Source: Oscillospiraceae bacterium (lineage in GTDB: Bacteria > Bacillota > Clostridia > Monoglobales > Monoglobaceae). From it: a DNA stretch of 64,000 nucleotides. Under the pieces are notes generated by a model. The model made no database searches. It was given only the letters and a program-made list of their open reading frames with translations, and was not told the DNA's origin. The stretch covers positions 1-64,000 of the forward strand of contig SVKF01000007.1 of assembly GCA_015068605.1 (NCBI GenBank), read 5' to 3'. Position numbers and translations under genes: made by a program. This document shows positions 25,671 through 29,363 of the stretch, piece after piece. How positions within the stretch are numbered: the first letter of the stretch is position 1; each line of letters opens with the position of its first letter.

Positions 25671-25699
25671 TTGACTTATCCGAATGCTTGTGATAAAAT
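25671..25699 (+). promoter_or_regulatory. promoter of the hydrogenase-maturation operon
   Basis: TTGACT (25671-25676) is followed after 17 bp by TAAAAT (25694-25699). Transcription would start near 25706, giving a ~136-nt leader before the first gene. This is the only good promoter in the gap after the AraC gene. Confidence 0.7.
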
Positions 25700-25705
25700 T
25701 AACAT

Positions 25706-25824
25706 AGTGAGGTGCGAGGTTCGTCCTTTCGCCAAACATTTTAAATTTATCTGATGTCCGAGGTTTCTTTGGCAAAAGGCTTAAGTTAATATTGCATTGC
25801 TTACGCCTTTTTGGCGTATTTTTT
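25706..25824 (+). promoter_or_regulatory. riboswitch-like attenuator leader of the TM1266-hydG-hydF operon
   Basis: The leader can form mutually exclusive hairpins. State 1 is an 11-bp aptamer-like stem, CCTTTcGCCAAA (25725-25736) with TTTGGCaAAAGG (25768-25779), which frees the terminator TACGCC/GGCGTA plus T-run (25802-25824). State 2 is an antiterminator in which AAAAGGCTTAAG (25774-25785) pairs with CTTACGCCTTTT (25800-25811), 12 positions with one mismatch. It takes both the 3' side of the first stem and the 5' side of the terminator. The ribosome binding site (25831-25836) follows directly. This is the architecture of a transcriptional riboswitch or protein-dependent attenuator. I do not recognise the aptamer. 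Confidence 0.65.
25802..25824 (+). terminator. intrinsic terminator inside the hyd leader
   Basis: TACGCC, loop TTTTT, GGCGTA, then TTTTTTC. It lies 17 nt upstream of the first start codon and not after a gene, so it acts as a conditional attenuator. Confidence 0.8.
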
Positions 25825-25841
25825 CATATATGGAGGTTTTA

Positions 25842-26087
25842 ATGGAAACGAGAGTTGCACTAATTGGAATTATTATTGAAAACCGTGACTCTGTCGGGAA
25901 AATGAACGATATTTTGCACGAATACGGGGAATTTATCATTGGCAGAATGGGGATTCCTTATGACAAGAAACAGGTTTCTGTTATAAGCGTTGCAATAGAT
26001 GCGCCCCTTGACACAATCAACAAGCTTTCGGGGAAAATCGGAATGCTTGACGGAATAACAACCAAGACTATCTATTCTAAAATTTAA
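25842..26087 (+). CDS. TM1266-type iron-only hydrogenase system regulator
   Basis: An 81-residue protein (METRVALIGIII at the N-terminus) with the ferredoxin-like alpha/beta fold pattern of the TM1266 family, related to NikR/ACT-type C-terminal domains. Family members are typically encoded with HydE, HydF or HydG and are annotated as putative regulators of [FeFe]-hydrogenase systems. No DNA-binding domain is visible, so the mechanism is unknown. The chosen ATG follows TGGAGG by 5 bp and lies downstream of the leader terminator. An upstream in-frame start would fall before or within that terminator and is unlikely. hydG begins 14 bp after the stop. Confidence 0.8.
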   Translation: METRVALIGIIIENRDSVGKMNDILHEYGEFIIGRMGIPYDKKQVSVISVAIDAPLDTINKLSGKIGMLDGITTKTIYSKI

Positions 26088-26100
26088 GGAGGAAGAATTT

Positions 26101-27516
26101 ATGTATAATCCAAAATCATTAAAGGCTGAAGAATTTATAAGCCACGAGGAAATACTTGCAACCCTTGATTATGCAGAGAAAAACAAGGGAAACATTGAAC
26201 TTATTGACGAAATAATTGAAAAAGCAAAGACTCTTAAAGGTCTTTCCCACAGAGAAGCATCTGTTCTTCTTGCCTGCGATATTGAAGAAAAAAATCAGGA
26301 AATTTATGCTCTTGCCGAGAAAATCAAGCAGGATATTTACGGCAACAGAATTGTTATGTTTGCGCCTCTTTATCTTTCAAACTACTGCGTAAACGGCTGT
26401 GTTTACTGCCCGTATCACGCGAAGAACAAAACCATTCCCCGAAAAAAGCTCACTCAGGAAGAGGTCAGAAACGAGGTAATCGCTCTTCAGGATATGGGAC
26501 ACAAGCGTCTTGCCATTGAGTCTGGCGAGGATCCTGTCAACAACCCAATCGAATACATTTTAGAGTGTATTAATACAATTTACAGCATAAAACACAAAAA
26601 CGGAGCAATTCGCCGTGTTAATGTTAATATTGCCGCAACAACTGTTGAGAATTACAGAAAATTAAAGGATGCTGGAATCGGGACATACATTCTCTTCCAG
26701 GAAACTTACCACAAGGAGAGCTATGAAGTTCTCCACCCAACAGGTCCAAAACACGATTACGCTTATCACACAGAGGCTATGGACAGAGCTATGGAGGGCG
26801 GAATTGACGATGTTGGACTTGGCGTTCTGTTCGGGCTTGAGCTTTATAAATACGAATTTGCAGGACTTTTGATGCACGCCGAACATCTTGAGGCAGTTCA
26901 CGGTGTTGGGCCTCACACTATAAGCGTGCCGAGAATTAAGCGTGCTGATGACATTGACCCGACAGTTTTCGATAATGGTATTGATGATGATACCTTTGCT
27001 AAAATCGTGGCTTGTATCCGCCTTTCCGTTCCGTATACGGGAATGATTATTTCAACAAGAGAGTCTGAGGCTGTCCGTGGCAGACTTTTAAAGCTTGGCG
27101 TTTCCCAAATCAGCGGTGCTTCCCGTACCTCTGTCGGCGGATATACCGATGAGGAGCGACCTCACGACACGGAACAGTTTGATGTTTCCGACCAGAGAAC
27201 CTTAGATGAAGTTGTCAGATGGCTTATGGAAATGGGCTTTATTCCAAGCTTTTGCACAGCTTGTTACAGAGAGGGCAGAACGGGAGACCGCTTTATGAGT
27301 CTTGCCAAGAATGGTCAGATTCAGAACTGTTGCCACCCCAATGCGCTTATGACTCTTAAAGAGTTCTTAAACGATTACGCCACCGAGGAAACACGAAAAA
27401 TCGGAAATGCTTTAATTGACAGCGAAACGGGGAATGTTCCAAACCCGAAAACAAGACAAATTCTTCTTGAAAATCTTGATAAAATTGAGGGCGGAATGCG
27501 TGATTTCCGCTTTTAG
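26101..27516 (+). CDS. hydG: [FeFe]-hydrogenase maturase HydG, tyrosine lyase
   Basis: A 471-residue radical-SAM enzyme, the usual HydG length. The CX3CX2C motif is Cys96, Cys100, Cys103 (CVNGCVYC). The C-terminal auxiliary-cluster motif CTAC followed after about 22 residues by a further Cys pair (QNCC) separates HydG from the related ThiH. HydG cleaves tyrosine to p-cresol and dehydroglycine and makes the CO and CN ligands of the hydrogenase H-cluster on an Fe synthon. GGAGGAAGAATTT precedes the ATG. It is flanked by the TM1266 gene and hydF, and no HydE or hydrogenase structural gene occurs in the window, so these must lie elsewhere. Confidence 0.95.
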   Translation: MYNPKSLKAEEFISHEEILATLDYAEKNKGNIELIDEIIEKAKTLKGLSHREASVLLACDIEEKNQEIYALAEKIKQDIYGNRIVMFAPLYLSNYCVNGCVYCPYHAKNKTIPRKKLTQEEVRNEVIALQDMGHKRLAIESGEDPVNNPIEYILECINTIYSIKHKNGAIRRVNVNIAATTVENYRKLKDAGIGTYILFQETYHKESYEVLHPTGPKHDYAYHTEAMDRAMEGGIDDVGLGVLFGLELYKYEFAGLLMHAEHLEAVHGVGPHTISVPRIKRADDIDPTVFDNGIDDDTFAKIVACIRLSVPYTGMIISTRESEAVRGRLLKLGVSQISGASRTSVGGYTDEERPHDTEQFDVSDQRTLDEVVRWLMEMGFIPSFCTACYREGRTGDRFMSLAKNGQIQNCCHPNALMTLKEFLNDYATEETRKIGNALIDSETGNVPNPKTRQILLENLDKIEGGMRDFRF

Positions 27517-27527
27517 GAGTGATTTTT

Positions 27528-28703
27528 ATGAGCCTTAATCAAACACCGTCTTCCGGCCGTGTTCATATTGGTCTTTTCGGCAGGAGAAATGCAGGAAAAT
27601 CCAGCCTTATTAACGCCATAACCAATCAAAATATCGCCCTTGTTTCCGATGTTTTGGGAACAACCACCGACCCCGTTTATAAGGCTATGGAGCTTCTTCC
27701 TTTGGGGCCGGTTATGATTATTGACACTCCCGGACTTGACGATGAGGGGGAATTGGGACTTCTACGCATAAAAAAGGCAAACCAGGTTATAAACAAAACA
27801 GACATTGCCCTTGTTGTTATTGACTCCCAAAGGGGAAAAACACCTCTTGAAGAGGATTTAATCATAAAGCTTGACAGTAAGAAAATTCCCTATATTACGG
27901 TTTTTAATAAATCGGATTTGGCGGATTTTAAGACCGGAGAAAACGAAATTGCCGTCAGCTCCGTAACGGGCAAAAATATTGATGCTCTCAAGGAAATGAT
28001 TGCCAAAAAAGCAGTTAAGCCCTTGGCAGAATTTCCGATTTTGTCCGATTTAATCCAAAAAGGCGACTTCGTAATTTTAGTTACGCCCATTGATGAATCT
28101 GCGCCAAAGGGGAGAATTATTTTACCGCAACAGCAGACCATACGGGAAATTCTTGACTCAAACGCAATCTCTGTTGTTTGTCAGGTTAATGAACTCGAGG
28201 GAGTTCTGGGAAACCTCAAAACTTCGTCAAGAATGGTTATAACCGACAGTCAGGCATTTGGCTCCGTTTCAAAAATTGTTCCCGAAAATATCCCTTTAAC
28301 CTCATTTTCCATTCTTATGGCGAGGCACAAGGGAGAGCTTTTTCACCAGCTTGAAGGGGCAAAGGCTCTTGACAGCATAAAAGATAACGACAAAATTTTA
28401 ATCTCCGAAGGGTGCACTCACCACCGTCAATGCGGTGACATCGGGACTGTTAAGCTCCCTGCTTTTATCAGGAATTACACTAAAGCAAACCCCGAATTTG
28501 ACTTCACAAGCGGAACGGAATTCCCCGAGGATTTATCCCCATATAAGCTTGTTATTCATTGCGGAGGTTGTATGCAGAGCGAACGGGAAATGAAATACCG
28601 TATTCAAACCGCAAAAGACCAAAATATTCCCATAACCAATTACGGAATGATAATCGCAAAAACCACGGGGATTTTAGACAGAAGCATGAAAGTTTTTATT
28701 TAA
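27528..28703 (+). CDS. hydF: [FeFe]-hydrogenase maturation GTPase HydF
   Basis: A 391-residue GTPase scaffold. The P-loop GRRNAGKSS is at residues 18-26, DTPG and NKSD motifs follow, and the C-terminal cluster-binding residues appear as GCTHHRQCG and HCGGC, the CxH...HCxxC pattern of HydF. It carries the [2Fe] precursor and delivers it to apo-hydrogenase. The ATG at 27528 is preceded by AGGAG with 8-bp spacing and lies 11 bp after hydG. An ATT-region extension to 27519 has no ribosome binding site. It is transcribed from the attenuated hyd leader. Confidence 0.95.
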   Translation: MSLNQTPSSGRVHIGLFGRRNAGKSSLINAITNQNIALVSDVLGTTTDPVYKAMELLPLGPVMIIDTPGLDDEGELGLLRIKKANQVINKTDIALVVIDSQRGKTPLEEDLIIKLDSKKIPYITVFNKSDLADFKTGENEIAVSSVTGKNIDALKEMIAKKAVKPLAEFPILSDLIQKGDFVILVTPIDESAPKGRIILPQQQTIREILDSNAISVVCQVNELEGVLGNLKTSSRMVITDSQAFGSVSKIVPENIPLTSFSILMARHKGELFHQLEGAKALDSIKDNDKILISEGCTHHRQCGDIGTVKLPAFIRNYTKANPEFDFTSGTEFPEDLSPYKLVIHCGGCMQSEREMKYRIQTAKDQNIPITNYGMIIAKTTGILDRSMKVFI

Positions 28704-28727
28704 GAAACACTTGTTAAGGTGGTTAAA

Positions 28728-29363
28728 ATGCTGAAATATACAATCAAAAACATAGCCGACATATCGGATGAGGAGTATAAAAAGAGCTATTCTTTAATGA
28801 ATCCTCAACGCCGTGAAAAAATCCAAAGGCTTAAAGGGGAAGCATCACAAAAGCGAACCTTGGCAGGGGAGTGGCTGTCTCGTCGGCTTCTTTCCCATGT
28901 CACGGGGCAAAATCCGGGCTTTTTTTCAATTTCTCCCGATGAATACGGAAAACCGCAGCTTGAAAATTTTTCCGATATATTTTTTAATATAAGCCACAGC
29001 AAAAATACGATCGTTGCGGCTGTTTGCGACGAAAAAATCGGTGTTGACATTGAGGAAATCCGCCCTGTCTCCCCAAAGCTTGCAAAAAAAATCTGCACAG
29101 CGGAGGAATTGCTTTATATTTTCGGCAAAGCTCCCACTTGCGCAGATTTTGATGACAACCTAAATCCCTTATTTTTAAAGAGATTTTTTGAAATATGGAC
29201 AATAAAAGAAGCGTATTTTAAATATATTGGCACAGGAATAACTGAATTTCAAACAGTAAGCACCCTTTCCGACAGCTTCAGCAAAATCAAAATCGAAAAT
29301 GATAACTTCATTGTCCACATGGTAACCTCCGCCAAAGCTGTGGCGGAATTTGTTCGGGTTTAA
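28728..29363 (+). CDS. Sfp-type 4'-phosphopantetheinyl transferase
   Basis: A 211-residue enzyme that moves the phosphopantetheine arm from CoA to a carrier-protein serine. Diagnostic motifs are FNISHSKN, GVDIEEI (Mg-binding Asp/Glu) and WTIKEAYFKY. AAGGTGG stands five bases before ATG 28728, so this start is preferred over GTG 28719. The family is the Sfp/HetI type rather than short AcpS, so the partner may be a fatty-acid or secondary-metabolite carrier. No carrier gene is near. It follows hydF by 24 bp and may be co-transcribed, although a functional link is not evident. Its stop codon overlaps the stop of the converging tatD gene. Confidence 0.9.
   Translation: MLKYTIKNIADISDEEYKKSYSLMNPQRREKIQRLKGEASQKRTLAGEWLSRRLLSHVTGQNPGFFSISPDEYGKPQLENFSDIFFNISHSKNTIVAAVCDEKIGVDIEEIRPVSPKLAKKICTAEELLYIFGKAPTCADFDDNLNPLFLKRFFEIWTIKEAYFKYIGTGITEFQTVSTLSDSFSKIKIENDNFIVHMVTSAKAVAEFVRV

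Follow-up and report, generated by a model that had tools for sequence, protein, structure and literature searches.

How the leader in front of an [FeFe]-hydrogenase maturation operon might control it is the question raised by this locus. On the + strand of the window, that is, the whole stretch of 64,000 nucleotides analyzed here, the genes are ordered as AraC-type regulator, leader, TM1266, hydG, hydF, and Sfp-like phosphopantetheinyl transferase (PPTase); the source genome comprises 1.59 Mb in 28 contigs and is 83% complete. An earlier note on this DNA had read the leader as a riboswitch-like attenuator of the operon. Is the leader a switch, does it belong to a broader class of RNAs, and to what could it respond?

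Results

The Leader in the Window

The placement of an attenuator before an H-cluster maturation operon is supported by the genes downstream, that is, the TM1266 family, hydG, hydF, and the Sfp-type PPTase (Table 1). Both the promoter and the terminator proposed in the earlier note are present, the latter shortly before the first ATG of the operon (25842). The promoter matches the consensus in 10 out of 12 positions, and it is backed only by its position, with promoter-like boxes occurring in the region at chance frequency; the predicted +1 (approximately 25705–25707) coincides with the start of the first of two domains described below. Taken alone, the folding of the leader is unremarkable, being only mildly above that of shuffled sequences (z −1.65).

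The PPTase gene follows hydF closely, as though it were a part of the hyd operon. The gene hydE and two genes with the [FeFe]-hydrogenase catalytic domain reside on other contigs of the same genome (G000:C27:12955-13944, G000:C9:124031-130442), where no RNA copy was detectable.

Table 1. Features of the leader and of the downstream genes in the window.
Feature	Positions	Strand	Basis
Sigma-70-type promoter, TTGACT, 17 nt, TAAAAT, extended TG	25671–25699	+	Consensus matches 10/12
5′ (type A) domain: P0 GU/AC, GA/AA loop, P1 GGUG/CGCC, CGA/UUU loop, P2 GG-UUCGU-CC	25705–25739	+	R2 match; type A covariation
3′ domain: P0 AAUUUA.UCU/AGG.cu.UAAGUU, GA/AA loop, P1 UGUC/GGCA, inner CGAGGUUUCUUU	25744–25787	+	Best R1 match in the leader, weak; P0 in the MFE fold
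Antiterminator, 5′ strand AAAAGGCUUAAG, overlaps the 3′ strand of domain 2 P0	25774–25785	+	Ensemble fold; same relation in other leaders
Antiterminator, 3′ strand CUUACGCCUUUU, overlaps the terminator 5′ arm and loop	25800–25811	+	Ensemble fold
Intrinsic terminator	25802–25824	+	TACGCC-TTTTT-GGCGTA at 25802–25818, then T6
Shine-Dalgarno GGAGG of the first gene	25832–25836	+	Sequence
TM1266-family protein, NikR-sensor-like fold, candidate effector	25842–26087	+	TIGR03959, 112 bits; AlphaFold model and Foldseek
hydG	26101–27516	+	TIGR03955, 932 bits
hydF	27519–28703	+	TIGR03918, 550 bits
Sfp-like phosphopantetheinyl transferase, closing the apparent operon	28719–29363	+	Sub-cut-off NCBIfam matches

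Conserved Fold and Covariation

TM1266 was detected in 34 out of 60 relatives and in 240 out of 391 genomes of the taxonomic class, and the leaders at these loci (100–400 nt upstream of TM1266) were compared. A direct search for the leader DNA in the 60 relatives yielded nothing homologous, because sequence is conserved less in the element than structure is. The leaders showed the recurring pattern CU-GA-NNNN-RA-hairpin-RA-NNNN-RA-AGG, often present twice, and high-scoring copies found with a pairing descriptor are far more common in real leaders than in shuffled ones. The domain found here is approximately 35–40 nt long: P0 is followed by an RA/RA internal loop, the 4-bp P1, another loop of either the RA/RA or the CGA/UUU kind, and P2. 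Single or tandem copies are situated before TM1266/hydG(/E/F) operons across Clostridia.

In the 3′ (type B) domains, 52 of which were aligned (alignment A1), the consensus is formed by P0 with the CU/AG core, an RA/RA loop, P1 of 4 bp, another RA/RA loop, and P2 of 3 bp. Standard pairs occupy 91.7% of the cells compared to 66.4% with shuffled partners, and double-sided changes were observed in 150 cells vs. 40, the covariation being biased by the selection of most rows with the pairing descriptor. The signal is lost when the partners are slid by 1–3 columns, and 92–100% of the A1 sequences keep the second A in each loop strand. Since most A1 rows had been picked by the descriptor, the covariation test was repeated on fresh GTDB loci, using 74 distinct sequences found by the covariance model resulting from the type B domains (R1): 89.4% of cells are paired vs. 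65.9% in shuffles, and 164 are double-compensated vs. 35, in an alignment that is fitted to the model and leans toward it. The 5′ (type A) domain differs from type B in its inner loop, CGA/UUU and variants; 22 such domains, the window excluded, show 90.5% pairing vs. 70.1% in shuffles and 47 double changes vs. 15. Tandem copies are found in at least 42% of 43 fresh leaders, compared to 0.3% of shuffles. We consider it nearly certain that the leader belongs to a conserved structured RNA class.

The window leader is a member of this class through its first domain, GU-GA-GGUG-CGA-GG-UUCGU-CC-UUU-CGCC-AA-AC. The type A model trained without the window (R2) matches it at 25705–25739 with 24.7 bits (E 0.00044), 11.6 bits above the next match in the window, and at E ≤10 this is the sole match in the whole genome (E 0.011, 1.59 Mb). 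Domain 2 follows the pattern UCU-GA-UGUC-...-GGCA-AA-AGG with outer AAUUUA/UAAGUU; the R1 match to it (25747–25783, 10.8 bits, E 0.013 over 156 nt) is weak and was not found genome-wide. As over the window the R1 match to the leader did not exceed the background, the class membership rests on R2.

These domains redraw part of the architecture suggested in the earlier note. Its stem of 25725–25736 with 25768–25779 can be drawn (11 out of 12 pairs, −9.6 kcal/mol), but has an ensemble probability of at most 0.01 and clashes with the conserved 5′ domain. The expected conservation across related operons did emerge, as a shared structure with compensatory changes, but not via this stem. The 31-nt loop considered as a ligand pocket turned out to be the linker plus the second domain. 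The word CGAGGTT does occur twice, and each copy forms the inner loop and the start of P2 in one of the two domains.

Position, Strand, and Regulon

The strongest evidence for the class comes from position and strand, neither of which was used by the models. At 80 GTDB TM1266 loci outside the model, some species of which perhaps also contributed source genomes to A1, R1 yielded 77 matches in 66 loci (377 kb, both strands, E ≤3); all 77 are on the sense strand, mostly 60–130 nt before TM1266, and the others include copies before hydG. Copies directly before hydG, near or overlapping its Shine-Dalgarno sequence, were observed in loci L156, L159, L162, L164, L168, L169, L173, L175, L181, L194, and others, and therefore the element appears to have two expression platforms, the terminator and an apparently translational one.

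Among 245 genomes of the taxonomic class, 56 were positive with R1 at E ≤0.05. Sites were found also before hydG alone, hydE-hydG, aspA-hydF, TM1266 with an NMT1/SsuA-like ABC transporter, and an ABC transporter alone; matches in L234, L237, and L242, situated inside unrelated reading frames, were treated as false. AspA provides ammonium for the dithiomethylamine ligand of the H-cluster, and aspA is frequently close to hyd genes (PMC11736057). TM1266 operons with no true hydG found nearby carry the RNA as well, with ABC transporters (L276, L277, L282, L283) or with an unannotated membrane protein (L284, L285). The gene for the substrate-binding protein is preceded by another copy in L282 and L283.

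Several further observations concern the genes of these loci. The substrate of the NMT1/SsuA-like ABC transporters whose genes are under the RNA (L232, L276, L277, L282, L283, L245) may be the regulated metabolite or its precursor. The unannotated hydrophobic protein of 171–178 aa (L284:918-1454, L285:936-1451, − strand), without Pfam or NCBIfam matches, is encoded right behind a TM1266 paralogue that itself has the RNA in front, and in L285 it is followed by an HndA/NuoE-like gene. The RNA with the TM1266-hydG operon is also found in metagenome-assembled genomes labeled Alphaproteobacteria and Victivallales (L128, L173, L194, L198), suggesting inter-phylum transfer or mislabeled bins. In L278–L281, TM1266 (approximately 1492–1743, coding orientation) has HypE (TIGR02124) upstream and a protein weakly resembling nitrogenase component 1 downstream; no RNA element was found at these loci, and HydG matches in those genomes are distant. 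The operon possibly represents another metal-cofactor assembly system.

Competition of the Domain and the Terminator

The antiterminator of the earlier note holds up, with 11 out of 12 pairs and an ensemble probability of approximately 0.65 in the full window leader, compared to approximately 0.35 for the terminator. It employs AAAAGGC, which in domain 2 serves as the 3′ strand of P0. The two structures are near-isoenergetic (−8.9 kcal/mol for the antiterminator, −9.3 kcal/mol for the terminator). In simulated folding of the growing transcript, domains 1 and 2 are favored up to 25800, the antiterminator once 25807–25818 have been made, and the terminator at 25824, a behavior to be expected of a switch whose balance an effector could shift.

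The same relation is seen in other leaders. A terminator is situated within 150 nt of the domain in 43 out of 47 fresh leaders vs. 15% in shuffles, and the duplex of the domain with the 5′ arm of its own terminator has −12.9 kcal/mol compared to the expected −10.3 kcal/mol (KS p 2e-8). Typically, GAAAGGC pairs with GCGCCUUU, and in another group of leaders, GUACUGAC is paired with GUCAGUAU. The conserved fold, the membership of domain 1, the terminator, the domain–terminator complementarity, and the co-occurrence with TM1266 are computed features. Attenuation through competition between the domain and the antiterminator is very probable.

TM1266 as a Candidate Effector

Among hydG-positive genomes, the RNA is present in 49 out of 126 with TM1266 vs. 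one out of 31 without it (Fisher p 6e-5, which is only indicative, as related species are pooled), and it also occurs in four hydG-negative genomes with TM1266. In TM1266-less genomes, one out of 20 hydG leaders (L254) has the RNA. Two genomes (G236, G063) have the RNA with no TM1266 detected, their congeners having TM1266, and in L245 the RNA precedes an ABC transporter while TM1266 is encoded elsewhere in the genome. Shared ancestry, as well as the location of TM1266 inside the regulated operon, confounds this co-occurrence.

The AlphaFold model of the TM1266-family protein (pLDDT 96) has a ferredoxin-like sensor domain as in NikR, which is also its best non-TM1266 match in Foldseek (E 1.3e-5). 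The protein matches PDB:2NZC, and its predicted fold contains no DNA-binding part; the TM1266 structure was released in 2006, and the protein is still annotated as a “putative regulator.” Because a ligand-sensing protein devoid of a DNA-binding part co-occurs with the leader RNA, TM1266 may be an RNA-binding regulator, by analogy with HutP and PyrR; to our knowledge, no RNA-binding activity has been described for NikR-like sensor domains. On balance, we give roughly equal weight to TM1266 being and not being the effector.

Discussion

The main proposal of this study is that the leader acts as an effector-stabilized OFF attenuator of a new cis-regulatory RNA family with TM1266 as the likeliest effector, a reading that, as a whole, stands at an even balance. 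The leader would comprise a pair of small stem-loop domains in succession, both having two symmetric internal loops of the purine-A type, and then the intrinsic terminator. With no effector bound, AAAAGGCUUAAG, which is the 3′ strand of the second domain, would pair with the 5′ arm of the terminator, and transcription would go on. The effector would stabilize the domains; once P0 has closed in the second of them, the antiterminator would be blocked and the terminator would fold, shutting down TM1266-hydG-hydF in a negative feedback. The effector would most likely be TM1266, the first product of the operon and a NikR/ACT-like ligand sensor, acting in the manner of HutP and PyrR. What we infer here is that switching takes place, in which direction, and that TM1266 is the binder; that the effector-bound state is the OFF state seems likely. 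In a broader and more tentative form, falling somewhat short of an even balance, TM1266 might be the founding member of a novel family of attenuator proteins acting on RNA; charged with a small molecule or a metal tied to H-cluster assembly, it would bind the tandem RA-loop hairpins and shut down maturase, ammonia-lyase, and transporter operons, via termination in some species and via the ribosome-binding site in others.

The main rival explanation, which we regard as plausible though not favored, is that the RNA senses a metabolite on its own: both domains would be aptamers whose ligand, a small molecule connected with the synthesis of the H-cluster or with its precursors, brings about termination upon binding, and TM1266 would be no more than a co-regulated gene. 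The regulon uniting biosynthesis (hydE/G/F, aspA) with NMT1/SsuA-like ABC transporters is of a kind common for riboswitches; there are two expression platforms, the terminator and the domain beside the hydG Shine-Dalgarno sequence; an unpaired A is invariant (92–100%) in all four A1 loop strands; and the domains are arranged in tandem, as in riboswitches of the glycine and guanidine-II types. Against this explanation stands the near absence of the RNA from hydG operons of TM1266-less genomes (one out of 31 and one out of 20, as above). In addition, the domain is small; few of its unpaired bases are conserved, and neither a junction nor a pseudoknot was observed. A riboswitch in the strict sense would bind a metabolite directly; since the RNA follows the presence of TM1266, an attenuator sensed by a protein is at least as likely for this leader.

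The sensing protein could also be a different one, e.g., an RNA-binding protein linked to iron, redox state, or the ribosome, with TM1266 incidental. The model of the ribosomal L10 leader does show similarity to two leaders (L008, 30.6 bits; L013, 27.6 bits), but these matches are below the gathering score of 44 (E 0.19–1.8) and absent elsewhere; moreover, such proteins are near-universal, whereas the RNA tracks TM1266, and we deem this explanation improbable. Still far less credible is an ordinary fixed terminator accompanied by chance stems, with no switch: the modest z-score of the window leader and the chance frequency of promoter-like sites would fit it, but strand- and position-specific conservation and compensatory changes in many families, as well as the R2 match being unique in the genome, speak against it, and the covariation data already contradict it.

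How does the element relate to known systems? As the earlier note had stated, the leader matches no known class: scans of the window and 40 related loci against Rfam 15, both at gathering thresholds and with permissive E-values, returned no family at threshold, and no covariance match to T-box, glycine, SAM, or other known classes. The glycine riboswitch was rejected on these grounds, as was the L10 leader (RF00557), which resembles the element in weak sub-threshold covariance matches of two leaders (L008, L013) and differs in the genes involved. In HutP/hut, PyrR/pyr, and TRAP/trp, a small ligand-binding protein, often the product of its own operon, similarly switches the antiterminator and the terminator of a leader; the RNA fold is different, and so is the protein fold, here that of the NikR/ACT-like TM1266, the putative binder. 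Guanidine-II/mini-ykkC and tandem glycine riboswitches also have two similar small domains in a row with a variable linker and a terminator or ribosome-binding-site platform, whereas here RA/RA internal loops replace the ACGR loops or the glycine aptamer core, and there is no Rfam match. Antiterminators controlled by ANTAR proteins share the tandem hairpins, the second overlapping the terminator decision. Their sites are hexaloops with conserved A1 and G4, whereas here it is the internal loops that hold the conserved bases, and no neighboring gene encodes an ANTAR protein; with different conserved loops, this candidate was rejected too. The open-access papers searched, on TM1266, hydG, and hydF as well as bacterial RNA discovery surveys, contained no description of the element. 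We therefore provisionally regard it as an uncatalogued, new class among the cis-regulatory attenuator RNAs, subject to a broader survey of the literature.

The control of H-cluster assembly, a costly process releasing CO and cyanide, has so far been largely obscure in bacteria, and the RNA described here probably lets the cells switch the production of the hydrogenase cofactor on and off. The element offers a widespread switch design with a defined regulon (hydE/F/G, aspA, ABC transporters, TM1266) and cultured hosts, e.g., Acetanaerobacterium elongatum (L130), and gives TM1266, a solved structure without a function, a concrete candidate role; it would also supply a natural sensor part for hydrogen biotechnology.
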